Shown: positions 6,127 through 53,004 of the stretch, piece after piece | Layout of the letters: each line of letters opens with the position of its first letter | Numbering within the stretch: position 1 is the stretch's first letter | Notes under the pieces: model-generated | Told to the model about the DNA's origin: nothing | What the model saw: the letters and a program-made list of their open reading frames with translations, nothing else | The model's database searches: none | Source: Paraburkholderia sp. PGU19 | GTDB lineage: Bacteria; Pseudomonadota; Gammaproteobacteria; Burkholderiales; Burkholderiaceae | Direction of reading: 5' to 3' | NCBI RefSeq assembly: GCF_013426915.1 | Contig: NZ_AP023181.1 | Coordinates: forward strand, 2,170,001 to 2,234,000 | Length of the DNA: 64,000 nt | Made by a program: the position numbers and the translations under genes

Positions 6127-6152
6127 CGATTAAATCGCACACGATGTATAAT
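6127..6152 (+). promoter_or_regulatory. ohrR promoter with OhrR-type operator
   Basis: A TATAAT -10 box lies at 6147-6152, preceded directly by CGATTAAATCGCACACGAT at 6127-6145, which contains the perfect dyad CGATT-A-AATCG. Read on the opposite strand the 19-mer closely matches the site next to the ohr promoter at 6758-6776. A repressor bound here would cover the -35/-10 spacer, so ohrR is probably autorepressed. Confidence 0.65.
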
Positions 6153-6195: not shown

Positions 6196-6657
6196 ATGAA
6201 GACCACCGCCAAGGCAGAAGACACGAACCCGAAGCTGGCCGACTTCCTGTGCTTTGCCGTTTACTCGGCGAACCTGGCATTCGGCAAGGCTTACAAGCCG
6301 ATTCTCGAAGAACTGGGACTCACGTACACGCAATACATCACCGTGATTGCGTTGTGGGAAGAGGACCATCAGACCGTCAGCAGTCTCGGTGAAAAACTGT
6401 TTCTCGAATCGAACACGCTCACGCCGATTCTGAAGAAGCTCGAAGGGATGGGCTATCTGGAGCGCCAGCGCGATCCGGAAGACGAGCGCCAGGTGCGCGT
6501 CAGCCTGACCAAGGCCGGCCGGAAGCTGCGCGAAAAGGCGTTCGGCATGGATCTGGTGGAGGCTTGCGGCCTCACGCCCGACGAGTTCTCCAAGATGCAG
6601 AAGTCCGTCGTCACGCTGCGCAACAACCTGATCAAGGCGGTGAGCGAGCAGGACTGA
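6196..6657 (+). CDS. ohrR: Organic hydroperoxide-sensing MarR-family repressor OhrR
   Basis: Cytoplasmic winged-helix repressor of 153 aa. The N-terminal LADFLCFAVYSANLAFGK region carries the peroxide-sensing cysteine at residue 19, and a second cysteine at residue 124 (VEACGL) fits the two-Cys OhrR class, in which an intersubunit disulfide releases DNA. The MarR helix-turn-helix and wing (LFLESNTLTPILKKLEGMG, then RQRDPEDERQVRVSLT) are clear. The ATG at 6196 was chosen because it gives the standard OhrR N-terminus. ohr lies downstream after a terminator and its own promoter; dyads in both promoters match each other, supporting regulation of itself and of ohr. Confidence 0.93.
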   Translation: MKTTAKAEDTNPKLADFLCFAVYSANLAFGKAYKPILEELGLTYTQYITVIALWEEDHQTVSSLGEKLFLESNTLTPILKKLEGMGYLERQRDPEDERQVRVSLTKAGRKLREKAFGMDLVEACGLTPDEFSKMQKSVVTLRNNLIKAVSEQD

Positions 6658-6757: not shown

Positions 6758-6836
6758 ATCGCACACGATTAAATCGTGCTTGACAGGAAAAATTTTGGGC
6801 CTAGAATGCGTCGTACGCGATGCAATCGTGTGCGGT
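6758..6836 (+). promoter_or_regulatory. ohr operon promoter flanked by two OhrR-type operators
   Basis: TTGACA (6780-6785), a 16-bp spacer and TAGAAT (6802-6807) form a good sigma-70 promoter. Upstream and abutting the -35 is ATCGCACACGATTAAATCG (6758-6776), whose core CACGATT-A-AATCGTG is a perfect dyad. A second related copy in inverse orientation, CGATGCAATCGTGTGCGGT (6818-6836), overlaps the likely transcription start region. Two operators bracketing the promoter fit repression by OhrR. Confidence 0.75.
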
Positions 6837-6930: not shown

Positions 6931-7200
6931 ATGAACAAGTTCTTCAAAGTTGCAGTCTGGTTTGCCCTTGGCGTCGCAGCGTCCACTTCGGCCTTCGCGA
7001 GCGGCTACGGCCCGGTGCCGCATTACAACCCGCTGCAAGGCGCGCCTGTGTCGCAGCAAGGCCCGAGCGCCATCGTCGCTGACGCAGGGCGTAACGCAGC
7101 CGCCAACGACGACATGGGCGGCGTTGCGACCCAGACCGTTCAGTCGGGTCACCGCACCATTTCGAGCGAGTTCGGCGTGTCCACCTTCAAGCATCACTAA
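6931..7200 (+). CDS. Small secreted protein of the ohr operon, unknown function
   Basis: Protein of 89 aa with a clear Sec signal peptide (MNKFFKVAVWFALGVAASTSAFA, likely cut after about residue 23) and a short mature part rich in Gly, Gln and His ending FKHH. No family is recognised beyond a general resemblance to short exported proteins common in Burkholderia. The ATG at 6931 is preceded by AGCGGAG. It is the first gene after the OhrR-controlled promoter and lies 24 bp before ohr, so it is probably peroxide-inducible. Confidence 0.75.
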   Translation: MNKFFKVAVWFALGVAASTSAFASGYGPVPHYNPLQGAPVSQQGPSAIVADAGRNAAANDDMGGVATQTVQSGHRTISSEFGVSTFKHH

Positions 7201-7224: not shown

Positions 7225-7641
7225 GTGGCAAGAATCGACAACGTCCTGTACACCGGCAAGACGCAAACCACGGGCGGCCGCGAAGGCGCGGCGCGCAGCT
7301 CGGACGGGCGTCTGGATATCCAGCTTTCGCCGCCGGGGTCGAGCGGCAAGGGCACGAACCCCGAGCAACTGTTCGCGGCAGGCTGGTCGGCGTGTTTCAT
7401 CGGCGCAATGGGACTGGCGGCGCGCGATCTGAAACTGACGCTGCCCGCCGATACCCACGTGAACGCCGAAGTCGACCTCGGCACGGGCGAGGGCGGCTAC
7501 TTCCTGCAGGCGCGTCTGAACGTGAGCCTGCCGGGCGTCAGTGCTGATGTGGCGCAGAAGATCGTCGATGCGGCACACCAGACGTGCCCGTATTCGAAGG
7601 CAACGCGCGGCAATATCGACGTCGAGATCGCGCTGGTTTGA
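7225..7641 (+). CDS. ohr: Organic hydroperoxide resistance protein Ohr
   Basis: Thiol peroxidase of the Ohr/OsmC family that reduces organic hydroperoxides, 138 aa. Both catalytic cysteines are present: Cys57 in [12 protein letters not shown] and Cys121 in HQTCPYSKATRGN. The start is GTG, with AGAGGAGAG upstream as ribosome site. Its position downstream of an OhrR-type promoter, with ohrR next door, is the classic ohrR-ohr arrangement. A second Ohr paralogue lies at 43206-43631. Confidence 0.95.
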   Translation: MARIDNVLYTGKTQTTGGREGAARSSDGRLDIQLSPPGSSGKGTNPEQLFAAGWSACFIGAMGLAARDLKLTLPADTHVNAEVDLGTGEGGYFLQARLNVSLPGVSADVAQKIVDAAHQTCPYSKATRGNIDVEIALV

Positions 7642-9880: not shown

Positions 9881-11776
9881 ATGAGGTTGAATGTGCGCGT
9901 GAGAATAAGAGGCATACCATTGTGGGCATGGGCCGCTGCTGGCGCGCTGTATCTCGGCGCGGCGGCCGCGGCCGTCGAATTCGCGTGGGACCGCGCGATC
10001 GATGCGCTCGCGCAAGTCGGCGCTCATCGGCTGGACCTGTACGCCGCCGGCCTGAAAAGCGAGCTGGGCCGCTTCGAGATGATGCCCGCCATCGTCGCGC
10101 GGCAGGACAGCGTGCGCGCGCTGCTGCGCGCTGGTTCGAGTGCTTCGCCCGAACTGCTGCACGAAGTCAACACGTATCTCGAAGCCGTCAGCGACGACGC
10201 GGGCAGTCTCGCCGTCGACGTGATCGACCTGCAAGGCTCGGTGATCGCCGCGAGCAACTGGAACCAGTCGTTCAGCTTCGTCGGCACCAACGTTTCCTAT
10301 CGGCCGTACTTCAAGGATGCGCTCGCGCACGGCGCGGGGCGCTTCTTCGGCATCGGCACGAACACGGGCATGCCGGGCCTGTACTTCTCGAGCGCCGTGC
10401 GCGACGCAGGCAAGCCGATCGGCGCGGCGGCCGTGAAGGTGAGCGTCGATGCGCTCGAAGCGGCATGGCGCACGCCCGGCGAAGCAGCGATGGTGATCGA
10501 CAGCAACGGCGTGATCGTCATCTCGACGGTGCCCGCGTGGAAGTTCACCGCGTTCCGGCCGATCACCGCGCAGCAGCAGCGCGATATTCAGGCTTCGCGT
10601 CAATACGCGGGCCGCAACGTCGACGCGCTGCTTTATCGGCGGGTCGCCGACTGGGACGGCACGGCGTGGCTTGGACGCTTTCCCGACTGGCGGCGCGCGG
10701 GCCGGACCACGCAGTTTCTCGTGATGTCGCGGAGCGCGCCGCAAGCGGGCGACTCGATCACGGTGTTGCTCGACGTTGCCGCCGCGCGGCGTCAGCAGCA
10801 GATTGCGCTCGCGTTCGTGACGGGCGCGTTTCTGATCGCCGGGTTGTATGCGCTGTACGCGACCCAGCGGCGCCGCACCATTGCCGAAAAGCTCAAGGCA
10901 CAGGACGCATTGCGCCTCGCGAACGACCGGCTGGAAATGACCGTCGCGCAACGCACGGCCGCGCTCGTGGAAACCAATGAACGGATGAAGCAGGAGATCG
11001 TCGAGCGCAAGCGGACCGAACAGCGTCTGCGCGACTCGCAGCAGGAAGTCGTGCATGCGGGCAAGCTCGCCGTGCTCGGGCAGATGGCCGCGGGCCTCAC
11101 GCACGAGCTGAACCAGCCGCTCGTCGCGATTCGCACGTTGTGCGACAACGCGCGCACGTTCTTCGAGCGCAATCAGCCGGCGCAGGCGGTGGCGAATCTG
11201 GAGCGCGTGGCGAAACTCGTCGACAGCATGGCCGTGCTGACGGGCGAGTTGAAAACCTTCGCGCGCAAGCCGGATGTCGAGCGGGTGGCGGTGTCGCTGA
11301 GCGAAGCGGTCGCGCACGCGCGGCTGATCTACGAAGCGCGCATCCGCGACGAAGGCGTGCAGCTCGACGTGAAGATTCCGGCGGGCACGACGGTGTGGGC
11401 GGAATCGAGCCAGTTGCAGCAGGTGATCGTCAATCTGCTGGGCAACGCGCTCGACGCCGTGCGCAACGAACCAAGACGTGTCATCACGATTGCCGCCGCC
11501 GATCCCGACGCGCGCGAGCGCGTGCTGTTCACGATCGCGGACAGCGGCCCCGGCATCGCGCCCGACGTGCTCGCGCATCTGTTCGAGCCGTTCGTGACGA
11601 CCAAGCCGCGCGGGCAAGGCCTCGGCCTCGGGCTCGCCATCTCGTCGCGTATCGTCGAAGGTTTCGGGGCGAAGATTTCCGCTGCGAATCTTGCAGACAG
11701 CGGCGCGGACGGCGGCGCACAATTCACTATCGAATTCGCGGCGGCAACGTCGCAGAGGGTGGTTCATGGGAGATGA
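9881..11776 (+). CDS. DctB-like membrane sensor histidine kinase
   Basis: Sensor kinase of about 631 aa. One N-terminal membrane helix, a periplasmic double-Cache-type sensor region (NWNQSFSFVGTNVSYRPYFKDAL and the GLYFSSAV region), a second helix near residue 320, a coiled coil, HisKA with phospho-acceptor His in GLTHELNQPL (about residue 408), and HATPase with DSGPGIAP and GLGLAIS. This is the architecture of DctB C4-dicarboxylate sensors. ATG 9881 is chosen; a TTG 24 codons upstream is also open but gives an unlikely polar extension. The 3' end overlaps the response regulator by 11 bp. Confidence 0.88.
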   Translation: MRLNVRVRIRGIPLWAWAAAGALYLGAAAAAVEFAWDRAIDALAQVGAHRLDLYAAGLKSELGRFEMMPAIVARQDSVRALLRAGSSASPELLHEVNTYLEAVSDDAGSLAVDVIDLQGSVIAASNWNQSFSFVGTNVSYRPYFKDALAHGAGRFFGIGTNTGMPGLYFSSAVRDAGKPIGAAAVKVSVDALEAAWRTPGEAAMVIDSNGVIVISTVPAWKFTAFRPITAQQQRDIQASRQYAGRNVDALLYRRVADWDGTAWLGRFPDWRRAGRTTQFLVMSRSAPQAGDSITVLLDVAAARRQQQIALAFVTGAFLIAGLYALYATQRRRTIAEKLKAQDALRLANDRLEMTVAQRTAALVETNERMKQEIVERKRTEQRLRDSQQEVVHAGKLAVLGQMAAGLTHELNQPLVAIRTLCDNARTFFERNQPAQAVANLERVAKLVDSMAVLTGELKTFARKPDVERVAVSLSEAVAHARLIYEARIRDEGVQLDVKIPAGTTVWAESSQLQQVIVNLLGNALDAVRNEPRRVITIAAADPDARERVLFTIADSGPGIAPDVLAHLFEPFVTTKPRGQGLGLGLAISSRIVEGFGAKISAANLADSGADGGAQFTIEFAAATSQRVVHGR

Positions 11777-43205: not shown

Positions 43206-43631
43206 TCAGACGAGCGTGAGCTTCACGTCGATGTTATTACGCGTCGCATTCGAATACGGGCACACGATGTGAGCCTTGTTGACCAGATCTTGAGCGGCAC
43301 TGCGCTCCATACCCGGCAATGATATTTTCATCTCGACTTCGATGCCGAACCCATTTGGAATCGGCCCGATCCCGACGCTGCTGTCGATCGACGCATCTGC
43401 GGGCATCGCGATCTTATCGCGTGCGGCAACGAATTTCATCGCACCGATAAAGCAGGCGCTGTAACCGGCGGCGAACAGTTGCTCCGGGTTCGCGCCGTCA
43501 CCGCCTTTTCCGCCCAGTTCCGTCGGCGTGGTGAGCTTGAATTCAAGGTTGGCTTCGGGCACCGTCGCGCGGCCGTCGCGGCCTCCCGTCGCGGTTGCGT
43601 GTGCAGTGTAAAGCGCCTTTTCGAGCGACAT
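43206..43631 (-). CDS. Second Ohr/OsmC-family peroxidase
   Basis: Thiol peroxidase of 141 aa, paralogue of the protein at 7225. Both catalytic cysteines are present: Cys60 ([10 protein letters not shown]) and Cys124 ([12 protein letters not shown]). AAGGAG precedes the ATG. It is the last gene of the leftward bufferin operon, 47 bp after the tautomerase gene, so it is probably expressed with the RiPP genes and reduces organic or lipid hydroperoxides. Confidence 0.92.
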
Positions 43632-43678
43632 GGCAAACTCCTTCGTTGAAGAGCTACGCGTTGTTGGAAGACTGCTGG

Positions 43679-43915
43679 TCAGGCTGATTTCGCTGCTTTG
43701 AGCTTTCGATACTCGAGGGCAGGCAGACCGCCCCAGCCCCAATTGTCCGTCAGCACTTCCTCGATCACAACAAAGGTGGATTCGAGCGGCTTGTTCAGCA
43801 CGTCGAGCAACACCTGGCTCACGCCCTTGATGAGTCGCGCCTTTTCTTCGGCCGTCACGCAATCCGCGCCGGGCTTCGTCCCTTCTCGCGTAACCTGAAT
43901 GGTGACAATCGGCAT
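43679..43915 (-). CDS. 4-oxalocrotonate tautomerase-family protein
   Basis: Protein of 78 aa. Pro2 ([12 protein letters not shown]), the catalytic base after Met removal, is present, and [15 protein letters not shown] is typical of the tautomerase group found beside stress genes. The reaction is unknown. GGGGAGC precedes the ATG. It lies between bufC and the Ohr paralogue in one operon, with gaps of about 50 bp. Confidence 0.85.
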
Positions 43916-43964
43916 CTTGCTCCCCTCGATCGTAGTTGAGGAATGGGCGGAGAGCCAGCTACTG

Positions 43965-44717
43965 TCAGACGGTCTCCACACCCACGATGAGTTCGCTGCC
44001 CAGCCATCCCGCCAGCAGCGCACCCGCTTTCGCCACGCCATCCGCGTCACCCAGACGCTCGACGAGCCGATCGCATAGTGTTGCAAAGCTTTGATTTTCC
44101 TGCAGATGAAGGAGCGCTTCGTACTCGGCGGCATCGACGCGCTTGAGACACGACACGAACTGCCGCCGCCAGACGATCAGGCCGCCCGGCTCGTCGAGCA
44201 TTTCGCTTTCGGGCGCCTCGGTGTTGGCGAATAGGGCGGACCAGATGCCGTCTGCATTCGTCGTGGCGGGGCGATGCCTGAGCGACGGCGTAAAGCGCAG
44301 CCGCGCTGCGTCCCAGTCGACGGAAGCGAGCGCGTCGAGCGGCAGCGGCTGCGCGTCAGGCGCAACGAAGGCTTCGGCCAGCGCATTTTCGATCCACGCG
44401 AGTTCGTGCACGTCGGGGTTGTGCGGAAACAGCACGCCCAGCGTGTCGCCGAAACCGTATGCGTACGCGTCGAGCGTCCACGCGTGCGGCGGATGGTGGT
44501 TGATGTGTGTCACGGCGGCATGCAGAAACGCATCCTCGCCAAGCAACGTCCGTACCTGTGGAAACGAATGCTCGAGGCATTCGATCAAGTGCCCGCGATA
44601 GTTGTTCTGGTAGACCGACAATCCGCGTGATGCATCGCCGCCGACGCGGCGGGCGGCTTCTTCCGATGCATCCGTAAGCCACGAGCGGAAGTCCTGTTGC
44701 CAGGCAGCGAGTGTCAT
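43965..44717 (-). CDS. bufC: BufC/HvfC-like DUF2063 partner of the RiPP maturase
   Basis: Protein of 250 aa with the DUF2063 N-terminal region (WQQDFRSWLTD, YQNNYRGHLIECLEHSFPQV) and a second domain toward the C-terminus. In bufferin and methanobactin-like systems, such proteins pair with an MNIO enzyme and bind its substrate peptide. Its ATG overlaps the bufB stop by four bases (ATGA), showing tight coupling. Confidence 0.88.
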   Translation of the reverse strand: MTLAAWQQDFRSWLTDASEEAARRVGGDASRGLSVYQNNYRGHLIECLEHSFPQVRTLLGEDAFLHAAVTHINHHPPHAWTLDAYAYGFGDTLGVLFPHNPDVHELAWIENALAEAFVAPDAQPLPLDALASVDWDAARLRFTPSLRHRPATTNADGIWSALFANTEAPESEMLDEPGGLIVWRRQFVSCLKRVDAAEYEALLHLQENQSFATLCDRLVERLGDADGVAKAGALLAGWLGSELIVGVETV

Positions 44718-45586
44718 GCAGCCTCCGCAATGGGCGTGTCATGTGCGACCCGTGCGTCCTGTTGCGCATGAGCGCCGAGCTTGCGCGCGATCCACAGTTC
44801 TCTCAGCAGTTCGTTCAACGGCGGCACGTTGCCATCGCGCTCGATCATCGTCGCGACAGGACCGAGCCGCGCCATCGCGTTCTCATAGAGTGCCCACACT
44901 TCATCGCACACGGGGCTATCGTGCGTGTCGATCAACAGATCGCGGCTTTGCGAGTGTCCCGCGAGATGGATCTGATGCACGCGATCGACGGGCAATCCGT
45001 CGAGATAGGCGAGCGCATCGAAACCGTGGTTCGTCGCGCTCACGAAGATATTGTTCACGTCGAGGAGCAGGCCACAGCCGGTGCGCTTCGACATCGTGGA
45101 AATGAATTCCCACTCGGTCATCGTTGCGCCGTCGAACGCGAGATAACTGGACGGATTCTCGAACAGCATCTGGCGGCCGAGCGCGTTCTGCGCGATGTCG
45201 ATATTCGCGCAGACGGTGTCGAGTGCTTCGTCGGTATAAGGGACGGGCAACAAGTCGTGCGAATTGAAGCGGCCGATGCGCGACCAGCTCAGGTGATCGG
45301 ACACGAACAGCGGTTCGATCTCATCGACGAGCGACTTCAGGCGGCGCAGATAGTCACGGTCGACGCCATCCGCAGAGCCGATCGACATCGACACGCCATG
45401 CAGCACGACGGGATGCTTCTCGCGCACGCGCCGCAGAATGTCGCGCGGCTGACCGCCATCGACTATGAAGTTCTCGGAAATGACTTCGACGAAATCGACG
45501 GGAACATTCGTTTCCAGGAAGTCGCGATAGTGTTCCTTGCGCAGGCCAAGGCCATAGCCTGCAAAGCGGGGATTAGAAGAGAGCAT
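44714..45586 (-). CDS. bufB: MNIO (DUF692) iron oxygenase, bufferin maturase BufB
   Basis: Multinuclear non-heme iron-dependent oxidative enzyme of 290 aa with a TIM-barrel-type sequence. Metal-binding segments are visible: VVLHGVSMSIGS, VSDHLSWS, LFENPSSYL, LLLDVNNIFVS and QIHLAGHS. In related systems this enzyme converts precursor cysteines to oxazolone- or thiooxazole-type groups that bind copper. It adjoins a Cys-rich secreted precursor and the BufC-like partner. Confidence 0.92.
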   Translation of the reverse strand: MLSSNPRFAGYGLGLRKEHYRDFLETNVPVDFVEVISENFIVDGGQPRDILRRVREKHPVVLHGVSMSIGSADGVDRDYLRRLKSLVDEIEPLFVSDHLSWSRIGRFNSHDLLPVPYTDEALDTVCANIDIAQNALGRQMLFENPSSYLAFDGATMTEWEFISTMSKRTGCGLLLDVNNIFVSATNHGFDALAYLDGLPVDRVHQIHLAGHSQSRDLLIDTHDSPVCDEVWALYENAMARLGPVATMIERDGNVPPLNELLRELWIARKLGAHAQQDARVAHDTPIAEAA

Positions 45587-45661
45587 GTGGCGTACCCGGC
45601 TGCGGAGTGTCGGTGAATGGACTGGCCCGGCGACGCATAGCCGGGCCAGCGATAGCGTGAC

Positions 45662-45931
45662 TTACTTCGGTTCCGTCAGCGTGCCGCCCAGTGACAGGCA
45701 TTCGCTCGGCGTCTTCACGACCACGCCCTTGCCCTTGCAGCTGTTGAGGCCCTTGCAGTCGTTGTGAGCCGTCGCGCACAGCGCCTGGCCCTTGCATGCA
45801 TTGACGCCGTAGCAGCGGCCGGGTTGTTCGCCCGTGGCGGCGCTCGCGGAGGTCGCGACGGTGGCCGATGCGATGGCGAGGAGGGCTGCGGCTGCAGCGA
45901 AGCTGACGCGGGATTTGACGTTGCTGTTCAT
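45662..45931 (-). CDS. bufA: Cys-rich bufferin-type RiPP precursor (second in operon)
   Basis: Exported protein of 89 aa: signal peptide (FAAAAALLAIASATVATSASA) and a mature part with six cysteines, CYGVNACKGQALC, then C in NDCKG, LNSCKGKG and PSEC. The repeated CKG units next to an MNIO maturase indicate a bufferin-like precursor. It lies 75 bp before bufB. The core residues that are modified cannot be named from sequence. Confidence 0.82.
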   Translation of the reverse strand: MNSNVKSRVSFAAAAALLAIASATVATSASAATGEQPGRCYGVNACKGQALCATAHNDCKGLNSCKGKGVVVKTPSECLSLGGTLTEPK

Positions 45932-45983
45932 GGTTGCTCCATGGTGGGTTGAGTGAAATGCGATTGGGAAAATGGCTTGGCGT

Positions 45984-46748
45984 TTATTTCGCGTGCAGCG
46001 CGGCTTCTTCGATGACCTTCGCGACCGCTTCGGGCTGCGAGATCTCGATCGCATGGCTTGCCTTCACTTCCGTGACCTTCGAACCCGCACGCTTGTACAT
46101 CCAGCGTTGCAGGTCGGGGTTGATCACGCGGTCGTCGGTCGCGACGATGCCGTAGGTCGGCTTGTCATGCCATGCGACCGTGTACGGCGCGGAGGCAAAG
46201 TCGGCGACAGTGGCGGGCACCTGCGAAACGGCCATGAAGTCGGTGCGGTTCGACACCAGATCGCCGGCGTAGTCCGTGCCGTATTTGGCGGGGTCGAAGT
46301 AGTAGTGACCGTCGATGGTCTTCTGCACGCCGTCGGTGAGCTTCGGCATCGAGCCCGCCAGCTGGTTCACGCTTTCGCCGACGTCGGGCTGAAATGCGGC
46401 GACGTAGACCAGCGCCTTCACCTTGGGACGCGCACCCGCTTCCGTGATGACGGCGCCGCCGTAGCCATGGCCGACGAGCACCACGGGGCCCGTCTGTCCG
46501 ATGACGGCGTTGTTCGTCGCGGCGACGTCTTCTTCGAGCGTCGTCATCGGTTGCTGGACGATGCGGACGTTATAGCCCTTGTGAATCAGGATGTCGTGCA
46601 CCGCGCGCCAGCCGGAGCCGTCGGTGAAGGCACCGTGAACGATCACGATGTTCTTCACGCCCGCCGGTGTGTCCGGCGTTGCGGCGAATGCCGCGCCTGA
46701 AACGGCGAGCGCTGCCGCAGCGAGGGTCAAAGTCGAAAGAATGCGCAT
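45984..46748 (-). CDS. Exported alpha/beta-hydrolase-like protein lacking the nucleophile Ser
   Basis: Protein of 254 aa with a signal peptide (MRILSTLTLAAAALAVSGAAFA) and alpha/beta-hydrolase fold. The nucleophile elbow, normally GHSYGG in close relatives, reads GHGYGG (VVLVGHGYGGAVIT, codon GGC near nt 46475), so the catalytic serine is absent. The oxyanion motif HGAF and the C-terminal His (ASHAIEIS) are kept. It may be a binding protein or inactive enzyme. It is the third gene of the bufferin operon. Confidence 0.85.
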   Translation of the reverse strand: MRILSTLTLAAAALAVSGAAFAATPDTPAGVKNIVIVHGAFTDGSGWRAVHDILIHKGYNVRIVQQPMTTLEEDVAATNNAVIGQTGPVVLVGHGYGGAVITEAGARPKVKALVYVAAFQPDVGESVNQLAGSMPKLTDGVQKTIDGHYYFDPAKYGTDYAGDLVSNRTDFMAVSQVPATVADFASAPYTVAWHDKPTYGIVATDDRVINPDLQRWMYKRAGSKVTEVKASHAIEISQPEAVAKVIEEAALHAK

Positions 46749-46821
46749 AGTGTTTTTGAATGGAGGCCACGCGGGCCGTGTTGTTGATGTCGGGTGGCGA
46801 AAGGTTGGTCGTGTGCTGCGG

Positions 46822-47331
46822 TCAGTCCGTCGTGCGTGAGCGGCCCAGCAGATGATCGACCGACCATTTGCCTGCGCCATGCGCGATCAGCGGAAGAAGC
46901 AGACCTGCCCACGTCAGATGCGTCGGCCATGCGTCGGGATAGACAAAGATCTCGATTACAGCCGTCATGCCCAGCAGCACCAACGCGGCAGAGCGCGTGA
47001 ACAATCCGAGCACGAGCAGGATCGGGCACAGGTGTTCCGCATACGTGGCGAGGTGCGCGGCAATCTCCGGCGGAATCAGCGGCAATGCGTATTCCGAGCT
47101 GAACAGGGCAAACGTCGACGGCTTGATCGTCAGCAGGCCCGTTACTTTCGTGCGTCCCGACAGAAAGAAGGTGGCTGCGATACCGAAGCGCGCCACCAGC
47201 AACAGTAGCGAAGGCGAAAGCGCGCGCGACAAGCGCTCGATGACGGCCGCGCGGAGTGCCGTCACGCCGCCCTGTTTCGCGAGGGACGAGTGGGAAACGC
47301 GCGCGTCGCGGGTTTGGGAGTGCAGCATCAT
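46822..47331 (-). CDS. DoxX-family membrane protein of the bufferin operon
   Basis: Membrane protein of 169 aa with four predicted helices ([17 protein letters not shown], the [13 protein letters not shown] region, [27 protein letters not shown]). DoxX proteins regularly accompany DUF692/DUF2063 RiPP genes and may serve redox or export steps. Its ATG overlaps the stop codon of the preceding precursor gene (ATGA), so the two are translationally coupled. Confidence 0.88.
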
Positions 47332-47606
47332 GACTTCGCCTTCAGCGCGCCGTAGCCCTTCGGCGTCTTGATCGTCGTGCAGGTGCCCTTGTCGACCATG
47401 ACGAACGCGTCGCCCTGATAGTCGACCTTCGACGTGCCTGCGCAGCTCGTACCGGGGCCGGCTGCGCAATCGTTCTTGCCGGCGAGCGACACACCGAAGC
47501 ATTTCTCTTGAGGCTTGGCCTGCTCGGACCCGGCATGTGCGCTGGTGGCGAGGACAGTGAGCGAAAGGGCGAACGTGGCGGCGAGTGCTGCGCGAGTGCT
47601 TTTCAT
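47328..47606 (-). CDS. bufA: DUF2282-type bufferin precursor (first in operon)
   Basis: Exported peptide precursor of 92 aa: signal peptide ([19 protein letters not shown]), then the DUF2282 pattern [32 protein letters not shown] and KGTC, with four cysteines. This is the classic copper-binding bufferin precursor family. ATG 47606 is preferred because GGAG lies six bases upstream; ATG 47612 abuts it. First gene after the OhrR-like promoter. Confidence 0.9.
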
Positions 47607-47972
47607 ATTCATCTCCGGTGGTGTGACAGTCAGGTGGTCAGGAATAAGTAGATCGCATGCGATCGAATCAGATGCGAGATGATACTGGGGTCTTGGAATT
47701 TGTCAATCGGTTACGAGTAAATCGCGTGCGATATATATGTAAAAGTGGAATGGCGTGATACTCGATAATCTCGCTGGATTGGGAGAGCGAGAGCGGAAAG
47801 CCGGGCCATGAGCCTGCAAAAGCGCGTGCAAGCGCGAGTAGTGATTGCATTGATTGTTTCCTGATGTTCAATATTTTCGGGGATTGATGGCCGTTGAACG
47901 ACGCATGCGAAGCACGCGACGATGCGTTAACATCTGCGCGACACACGACGCCGAACACCTGGAGATTTCCGC
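47607..47972. other. Intergenic region with the bufferin operon promoter
   Basis: About 365 bp between divergent genes, more AT-rich than the flanks. It holds the leftward promoter and two OhrR-like operators listed at 47652-47732. The rest shows no gene; the rightward dcyD gene has a GGAG site at about 47961. Confidence 0.7.
47652..47732 (-). promoter_or_regulatory. Bufferin operon promoter with two OhrR-like operators
   Basis: On the minus strand TTGACA (complement of 47701-47706), 16-bp spacer and TATCAT (complement of 47679-47684). Upstream lies ATCGCACGCGATTTACTCG (minus strand, 47714-47732), identical to the ohr operator at 16 of 19 positions. Downstream, over the expected start, is a second related palindrome, ATCGCATGCGATCGAATCA (47652-47670). 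The order operator, -35, -10, operator is the same as at ohr. Confidence 0.72.
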
Positions 47973-52116: not shown

Positions 52117-53004
52117 ATGGATGTCGCCGACCTCAAGGTGTTCGAGGCAGTGGCCCGTCACGGCAGCATGAACCGGGCGGCTGCCGAACTTCATACCGTT
52201 CAGTCCAATGTGACAGCGCGAATCCGGTCTCTCGAACGGGAAATCGGTGTCGCGCTGTTTCAGCGCCATGTGCGCGGCGTCAGCCTGACGCCCGCTGGGC
52301 AACGCATGCTGCCGTACGCGGCGCGCATTGCGAAACTGCTTTCGGACGCGCGGCTCGCGGCGCTCGACGACGGCCCGCCCGCCGGTACGCTCGCTTTAGG
52401 CACGCTCGAAACGACGGCCGCGTTGCGCCTTTCGCCGATATTGAGCAACTTCGCCAGAATCTATCCGCAAGTGCGCCTGTCTCTGACCACGGGCACGAGT
52501 TGCAGTCTGACGGAAGAGGTGGCCGCGTGCCGGCTCGATGGCGCCTTTGTCGCGGGCCCCGTCGAGCATCCCGAACTGCATGCCGAGATGATCTTTCAGG
52601 AAGAACTGGTGCTGGTGACGCCGCGCAACCTGCGATCGATGGATGCGCTGCGCGCCGTACCCGACCTGAAGACCATCGTGTTCAGATTGGGTTGTTCGTA
52701 TCGTCAGCGGCTTGAAGCGCTGCTGGCGGAAATGGGTATCGTGACGGCCACGCCGCTCGAATTTGGTTCACTCGATGCGATCATCGCGTGCGTCGCGGCG
52801 GGCATCGGCGTGACGCTGTTGCCGCGCGGCGTGGTGTCCAGTGCGGCCGAGCAGGATATCGTCGCGCTTCATTCGTTGCCGCCGGAGAAAGCGCAGGTAG
52901 CCACGCTGTTTATTCGCCGGCACGACGCCTACGTGTCGAGCGCGATGCAGGCGTTCGTCGAAGTGACGCGCTCGCGTCTCGGCCCTGTGATGGCGGCAGC
53001 CTAA
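52117..53004 (+). CDS. LysR-family transcriptional regulator
   Basis: LysR regulator of 295 aa: HTH DVADLKVFEAVARHGSMNRAAAELHTVQSNVTARI, then the effector domain. It is on the same strand as and 145 bp after the CaaD-like genes, and resembles LysR proteins of the CynR/GltC type with LHTVQSNVTARIR recognition helix. Target not shown. Confidence 0.85.
   Translation: MDVADLKVFEAVARHGSMNRAAAELHTVQSNVTARIRSLEREIGVALFQRHVRGVSLTPAGQRMLPYAARIAKLLSDARLAALDDGPPAGTLALGTLETTAALRLSPILSNFARIYPQVRLSLTTGTSCSLTEEVAACRLDGAFVAGPVEHPELHAEMIFQEELVLVTPRNLRSMDALRAVPDLKTIVFRLGCSYRQRLEALLAEMGIVTATPLEFGSLDAIIACVAAGIGVTLLPRGVVSSAAEQDIVALHSLPPEKAQVATLFIRRHDAYVSSAMQAFVEVTRSRLGPVMAAA

Follow-up and report, generated by a model that had tools for sequence, protein, structure and literature searches.

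A 64,000-nucleotide stretch of Paraburkholderia sp. PGU19 (hereafter the window; G000:C3:2170001-2234000 of an 11.2-Mb genome) carries a row of eight genes for bufferins (buf), peptides with a predicted copper-trapping role, that ends in a gene for an Ohr-family peroxidase and begins at a promoter flanked by two operators of the type found at the window's own ohrR and ohr promoters. Because close operator copies shared with ohrR/ohr flank the buf promoter, a peroxide-switched copper defense is likely. We propose, from sequence comparison, that the bufferin operon is repressed by an OhrR-type regulator and induced by peroxide, and we put the probability of this proposal at about three in four.

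The buf promoter and its operators

Four elements make up the buf promoter:

47714..47732, minus strand: operator 1, ATCGCACGCGATTTACTCG, immediately before the -35 box; it scores 26.4 bits against the ohr-only matrix described below
47701..47706, minus strand: -35 box, TTGACA
47679..47684, minus strand: -10 box, TATCAT, at N16 spacing from the -35 box
47652..47670, plus strand: operator 2, ATCGCATGCGATCGAATCA, directly downstream of the -10 box; 19.8 bits

The boxes are a good sigma70-type pair, wedged between the operators. The sites with which these operators were compared belong to the ohrR/ohr locus of the window:

6127..6145, minus strand: operator at the ohrR promoter, ATCGTGTGCGATTTAATCG; matrix training site
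6196..6657, plus strand: OhrR, MarR family, with Cys19 and Cys124; the top PDB matches are OhrR chains (2pfb, 3e-33; 2pex, 5.4e-32)
6758..6776, plus strand: ohr operator 1, ATCGCACACGATTAAATCG; matrix training site
6818..6836, minus strand: ohr operator 2, ACCGCACACGATTGCATCG; matrix training site
7225..7641, plus strand: Ohr, first copy, downstream of ohrR; TIGR03561, 167.4 bits

The genome encodes a Cys-bearing OhrR, which matched one NCBIfam OhrR model only, the equivalog NF052638 (TransRegOhrRVib), at 121.6 bits, under its cutoff of 200. Operator 1 of buf equals ohr operator 1 at 16 of 19 positions, with 3 differing, and the order of operator, -35 box, -10 box, and operator is common to both promoters; at ohr, it reads ATCGCACACGATTAAATCG, TTGACA, TAGAAT, and the second operator. 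A preliminary description of this DNA had reported the 16-of-19 match, the shared layout, a TTGACA-N16-TATCAT promoter with two flanking operators, and eight same-strand genes with short gaps or ATGA overlaps. Each of these was recovered, the promoter at 47706-47679, the operators at 47732-47714 and 47652-47670, and the genes as eight intact reading frames.

We derived a 19-bp matrix from 22 ohrR/ohr promoter sites (11 distinct, each used once) of eight genomes, including this one, and kept all buf sites out of it. Across the window, it ranked the three training sites first, followed by three readings in the buf promoter at 26.4, 19.8, and 19.7 bits, the last being a reverse reading that overlaps the 26.4-bit operator 1. 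The best unrelated matches in the window scored 18.5 and 18.3 bits. Random order-2 Markov sequence (20 Mb, both strands scanned) yielded no match of 26.4 bits or higher and 28 of at least 19.7 bits. Operator 2 is supported by its position and its conservation.

When the whole genome was searched with the 19-mer, 33 matches had three or fewer mismatches, compared with 3 for a reversed control. At two or fewer mismatches there were nine places, eight of them at five promoters. A motif search, of the kind suggested in the preliminary description for related genomes, yields a small set, namely ohrR, ohr, another Ohr gene (C3:896k), buf, and an operon-related, amidase-like gene (C3:1554.8k), and the buf promoter bears an OhrR-type operator shared with ohrR/ohr. 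The ninth place, C1:881730 (two mismatches), lies inside a minD-like gene, named by eye, and was judged a coding coincidence.

Genes and products of the likely operon

The eight intact open reading frames, all on the minus strand, run from 47612 to 43206:

47328..47612, minus strand: Buf1, bufferin precursor (DUF2282); PF10048, 3e-24; four Cys; signal-like N terminus by eye
46822..47331, minus strand: DoxX membrane protein; PF07681, 1.3e-17
45984..46748, minus strand: alpha/beta hydrolase; PF12697, 1.4e-20; signal-like N terminus; GHGYGG, without nucleophile serine
45662..45931, minus strand: Buf2 (BufA2), bufferin precursor; NF050166, 84.6 bits, cutoff 60; six Cys
44714..45586, minus strand: BufB, MNIO bufferin maturase; PF05114, 1.9e-110; NF050167, 382.5 bits, cutoff 310
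43965..44717, minus strand: BufC, DUF2063 partner protein; PF09836, 1.8e-21, over cutoff
43679..43915, minus strand: tautomerase-family protein; PF01361, 7.5e-13; TIGR00013, 58.0 bits, cutoff 56.9
43206..43631, minus strand: Ohr-family peroxidase, operon copy; TIGR03561, 178.1 bits, cutoff 88.85; PDB 4noz, 3e-73

ATGA overlaps join Buf1 to DoxX and BufB to BufC. The gaps after DoxX, the hydrolase, and Buf2 measure 73, 52, and 75 nt, and those after BufC and the tautomerase measure 49 and 47 nt. From this spacing we infer co-transcription, so that the eight genes are likely one operon. Past the Ohr stop codon, an inverted repeat (TTGCTGGCCGC...GCGGCCAGCAA, 43184-43152) plausibly marks its end.

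The constituents of a bufferin cluster are all here: precursors, with signal peptides judged by eye, BufB, and the DUF2063 partner, which scored under the cutoff of a second model, NF050145 (26.5 of 142 bits). The last gene product belongs to the Ohr family by its subfamily score and its two cysteines, C60 and C124, which align with cysteines of PDB 4noz and 1n2f; we take the counterpart cysteines in the solved Ohr proteins to be catalytic. The sigma and anti-sigma genes that mark bufferin operons controlled by an extracytoplasmic function (ECF) sigma factor and NrsF are absent from the eight.

The hydrolase, called nucleophile-less in the preliminary description, indeed has GHGYGG at its elbow, as do most hydrolases of the window's clade. 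Among 61 hydrolases, duplicates included, the elbow holds a serine in 31 (GHSSGG, GHSYGG) and none in 28, and 2 could not be parsed. By this comparison, nucleophile loss is recurrent across the family, and the window's hydrolase is possibly now a binding protein.

The gap between buf2 and bufB contains a G+C-rich 11-bp hairpin (45650-45621) with no T run, which may keep precursor mRNA above maturase mRNA. As an unusual fold, the hairpin region was rejected: the folding energy had a z score of -1.6, and 12 of 200 shuffles were equally good.

Conservation among orthologs in the genus

BufB was searched in an evenly drawn sample of 97 genus genomes, 75 of which had matches. Nine BufB orthologs emerged, the window's own and a further eight with identities of at least 78%. 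The preliminary description had regarded loss of the motif upstream of orthologs as one of the outcomes that would count against it; operator 1 is kept in all nine orthologous buf operons, and the whole promoter is kept in eight. Over these eight, mean ungapped pairwise identity is 94% in operator 1, 100% in the -35 box, 96% in the -10 box, and 85% in the operator 2 region; the spacer has 62%, the upstream flank 52%, and the downstream flank 30%. The operators and promoter are thus the best-conserved parts of the buf upstream region.

Gene arrangement is also largely kept. Ohr is last in the buf row in eight of the nine genomes, and the ohrR and buf loci lie at most about 90 kb apart in seven, being on separate contigs in the other two. 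In G021 (L062:8570-9680), a gene read by eye as a short-chain dehydrogenase stands between bufC and the tautomerase.

For comparison, we took 24 other MNIO loci, comprising 21 second-tier buf loci of the genus (with 1.5-kb flanks, and part of many more BufB matches) and three from the window's own genome (stretches of about 10 kb). A site of at least 18 bits with the ohr-only matrix was found at none of the 21 genus loci and none of the three own-genome loci, the best score among them being 17.0 bits. Ohr, the hydrolase, and Buf2 were likewise found at none of the 24 (tblastn, 1e-6, at least 40% of the query). These results, 0 of 21 genus loci and 0 of 24 MNIO loci, rule out OhrR-type sites as a general trait of bufferin promoters.

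A further instance comes from Cupriavidus sp. YR651, in which an ohrR gene (76% identity to the window's OhrR) adjoins buf1 and is divergent from it. There, buf sites of 27.3 and 23.8 bits flank TTGACA/TATTAT in the layout seen in the window. The conserved operator 1, the sites shared with ohrR/ohr, and this divergent ohrR give good comparative support to what the preliminary description had called apparent OhrR-type control; the Ohr gene found at the opposite end of the related row in Dyella/Luteibacter (below) adds to it.

An amidase-like gene as a second member

The amidase/formamidase (Amd) name of the gene at the fifth promoter was given by eye and from a match far under cutoff (NF045496, 32.7 of 500 bits). 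Such a gene follows bufC on the same strand at several loci (L063, L104, L105, L106, L117, L132, and L140) and lies between buf2 and bufB at L128; in the window's clade, it lies apart from the buf operon. Where it lies apart, all 8 genomes have one or more sites scoring 25 bits or higher within 300 bp upstream. A pair of separate sites that each reach 20 bits is present in 7 of the 8; in G043 (L217), the second site scores 13.4. In the window's own genome, its promoter reads operator, TTGACA, N16, TATGAT, operator, and three OhrR-like site readings fall in L068:1930-2019 (G000:C3:1554729-1554818). No reading above 4 bits precedes the gene in G040, whose copy sits behind bufC.

Promoters of the wider family

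The wider set joined the best 80 of 183 loci to the nine genus loci, 89 in all and 86 after removal of the duplicates L102, L103, and L123. Among the 86, four (L115, L122, L170, and L179) have little or no upstream DNA, and L134 and L145 were scored with hand-set gene starts. Some of the close orthologs come from named Burkholderia and Paraburkholderia records. Upstream sites of at least 20 bits occur at 14 of the 86 loci: the nine genus loci, Caballeronia glathei, Paraburkholderia sp. UYCP14C, Cupriavidus YR651, and two Duganella loci. All of these are Burkholderiales by the taxonomy of their names.

A different element, TGTATC-N4-TGTATC or GACACA-GATAC, is found at 41 of the 86 loci, two of which (L063 and L104) also have an OhrR-type site. 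Wherever both parts were found (28 loci), TGTATC-N4-TGTATC lies 61 bp before GACACA-N4-GATAC; its distance upstream of the first operon gene is about 75 to 175 bp (L106, L114, L124, and others). All 16 Dyella/Luteibacter loci have Ohr at the head of the row, immediately followed by buf1, and a gene for an OmpR-type regulator that lies upstream on the other strand, at a distance of 0.9 kb from Ohr in L114. The TGTATC-N4-TGTATC element is likely a response-regulator site. Pseudomonas, Dyella, and Luteibacter have this putative OmpR-type element, Caballeronia glathei and Paraburkholderia heleia have both kinds, and the window's clade has OhrR sites only.

A BufB tree, made by a quick method and with many open forks, the order of the main Burkholderiales groups among them, places Dyella/Luteibacter apart from the Paraburkholderia clade with terminal Ohr. 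Thus, buf and Ohr probably became linked on more than one occasion, and control of buf probably changed at least once. A fuller scenario, whose odds we see as evenly poised, is that a copper-peptide operon exchanged an OmpR-type response-regulator element for control by OhrR, with Ohr joined at opposite ends in two lineages and bufferins thereby brought into lipid-peroxide defense. If so, this would be a traceable regulatory rewiring in which promoters with both elements are still alive, and copper removal by bufferins would serve to stop peroxide radical chains.

Proposed mechanism and competing explanations

Under OhrR control, reduced OhrR would occupy both operators and block RNA polymerase, with Cys19 as the sensor and Cys124 as its partner. 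Oxidation of OhrR by organic hydroperoxide or hypochlorite would release it from the operators. The operon would then supply the exported precursors Buf1 and Buf2, whose cysteines BufB and BufC would turn into copper-binding groups, expected to be the Cys-derived thiooxazoles of bufferins, while the Ohr made alongside would reduce lipid hydroperoxides. The likely rationale is that periplasmic copper would break lipid hydroperoxides into radicals, so that joint removal of copper and peroxide would stop the chain.

Several points weigh against this proposal. The genes, the sites, the conservation of the sites, and their sharing with ohrR/ohr are there in the DNA; OhrR binding and induction of buf are predicted by comparison. 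The training sites are presumed OhrR sites, taken as such by position, and operator 2 is the weaker match in this genome, at 19.8 bits little above the unrelated 18.5 and 18.3 bits. G040 keeps operator 1 but is without TTGACA and operator 2. In the wider set, 72 of the 86 loci have no site of at least 20 bits, including every non-Burkholderiales locus and, within the Burkholderiales, Massilia, Undibacterium, C. pampae, and three Duganella loci; C. glathei and Paraburkholderia sp. UYCP14C have a single strong site each, with TTGACA not evident next to it. Dual control that includes a copper regulator is possible. Finally, the natural inducer may be something other than organic peroxide, given that the ohr genes of Burkholderia cenocepacia are induced by H2O2 and NaOCl (PMC2830190).

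Of the rival explanations, the first is that the operon is mainly controlled by copper or another metal, the OhrR-like sites being a minor modulator or a relic. Buf1 protects against copper in Caulobacter (PMC12452194), the gig cluster of C. metallidurans is copper induced under ECF control by RpoQ (PMC7563307), and nearly half of the related loci have the other promoter element. Nevertheless, the eight genes include no sigma or anti-sigma gene, the operators enclose the sigma70-type boxes, and conservation upstream of buf is highest in the operators and the promoter; we consider this explanation unlikely.

Second, the operators could be bound by another MarR/OhrR paralog responding to a similar oxidant signal. 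This point also counts against the proposal as it concerns the window's OhrR, since the genome has two more OhrR-like proteins (C4:725777, 78% identity; C3:1500129, 69%) whose recognition-helix regions are nearly identical to its own, and so a paralog could be the binder. Ohr genes close to both paralogs carry similar sites (three mismatches). However, five of the nine genomes with the operon (G001, G021, G043, G083, and G096) keep the buf operators and have one close OhrR (at least 89%) beside a single 46 to 48% homolog with a different helix, and we consider a paralog quite unlikely. Separately, L100:1086-1584 (G000:C4:726k) contains an apparently frameshifted Ohr gene next to an OhrR paralog whose frame is open, together with three OhrR-like site readings.

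Last, chance likeness to a palindrome common in the genome is highly improbable and was rejected because the 19-mer is rare (33 matches against 3 for the reversed control) though its 12-bp core, ATCGYRYRCGAT, recurs at 62 genomic positions, and the phylogenetic footprint over the operators and the lack of sites of at least 18 bits at the 21 other genus buf loci and three own-genome MNIO loci argue the same way.

Relation to known systems

OhrR control of the buf operon would have a close counterpart in the OhrR-ohr system of C. violaceum, which likewise has a two-Cys OhrR, a 12-bp palindrome at the promoter, and a site at ohrR (PMC3469484). Both regions footprinted there contain the palindrome ATAGTGCACTAT, and the buf/ohr core, ATCGCATGCGAT, has the same form; the half-site bases differ between the two (ATCG..CGAT versus ATAG..CTAT; PMC3469484). 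As a further point against our reading of the sites, the same authors also name CTATT-A-AATAG as a possible core (PMC3469484). Unlike that of C. violaceum, the regulon predicted here extends to a metallophore operon and the amidase-like gene.

The DUF2282, DUF692, and DoxX genes of the Caulobacter sigma-F regulon are, we presume, bufferin operons. All three names are mentioned in the account of that sigma-F/NrsF regulon, whose sigma-F-dependent genes were not induced by agents that generate reactive oxygen species (PMC3511200). In contrast, the likely regulator of the window's operon is a peroxide sensor.

Bufferins are copper chelators, and tandem precursors as well as sigma/anti-sigma genes in Buf1 clusters have been described (PMC12452194). 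The core genes of bufferin (captophorin) clusters (PMC12452194, PMC13097082) are all present in the window, over curated Pfam/NCBIfam cutoffs, and tandem precursor genes are a feature of both. The window's operon differs in having Buf1 and Buf2 with one MNIO, in the addition of a hydrolase, a tautomerase, and Ohr, and in bearing OhrR-type operators and no sigma/anti-sigma pair among its eight genes.

Why oxidative stress also induces bufferin clusters is, to our knowledge, an open question. The induction itself has been published for bufferin-type clusters (PMC13097082), and copper upregulates ohrR in C. metallidurans (PMC7563307). The preliminary description had presented the link between copper peptides and peroxide stress as new; since a general link to oxidative stress is in print, what is new is OhrR as the likely sensor and an Ohr encoded within the row itself. 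Our searches, which covered open-license full text, showed neither OhrR control nor a built-in Ohr of a bufferin operon, and among the matches listed no paper combined OhrR with DUF692, DUF2282, or MNIO; OhrR and DoxX co-occur in one listed paper, a biosensor review (PMC7662651). A word search of the main text of PMC12452194 returned no OsmC, peroxid-, or MarR.

If the proposal is correct, the oxidative-stress link would take molecular form as one repressor, two operators, and two kinds of product, founded on three features: a promoter with a likely peroxide sensor, an operon-encoded Ohr, and another module gene that has its own copy of the promoter. The OhrR regulon would then widen from peroxide removal to metal control.

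Neighboring genes

Three other genes of the window were noted. Between ohrR and ohr, a gene (6931-7200) for a small protein whose N terminus looks signal-like belongs by its position to the ohr transcript. Near the buf operon lies a gene for a thioredoxin-like redoxin (49585-49034; PF08534). Farther on, 52117-53004 encodes a LysR-type regulator that is, by eye, close to a LysR (10252-11139) that neighbors the amidase-like gene at the Cupriavidus locus L140.

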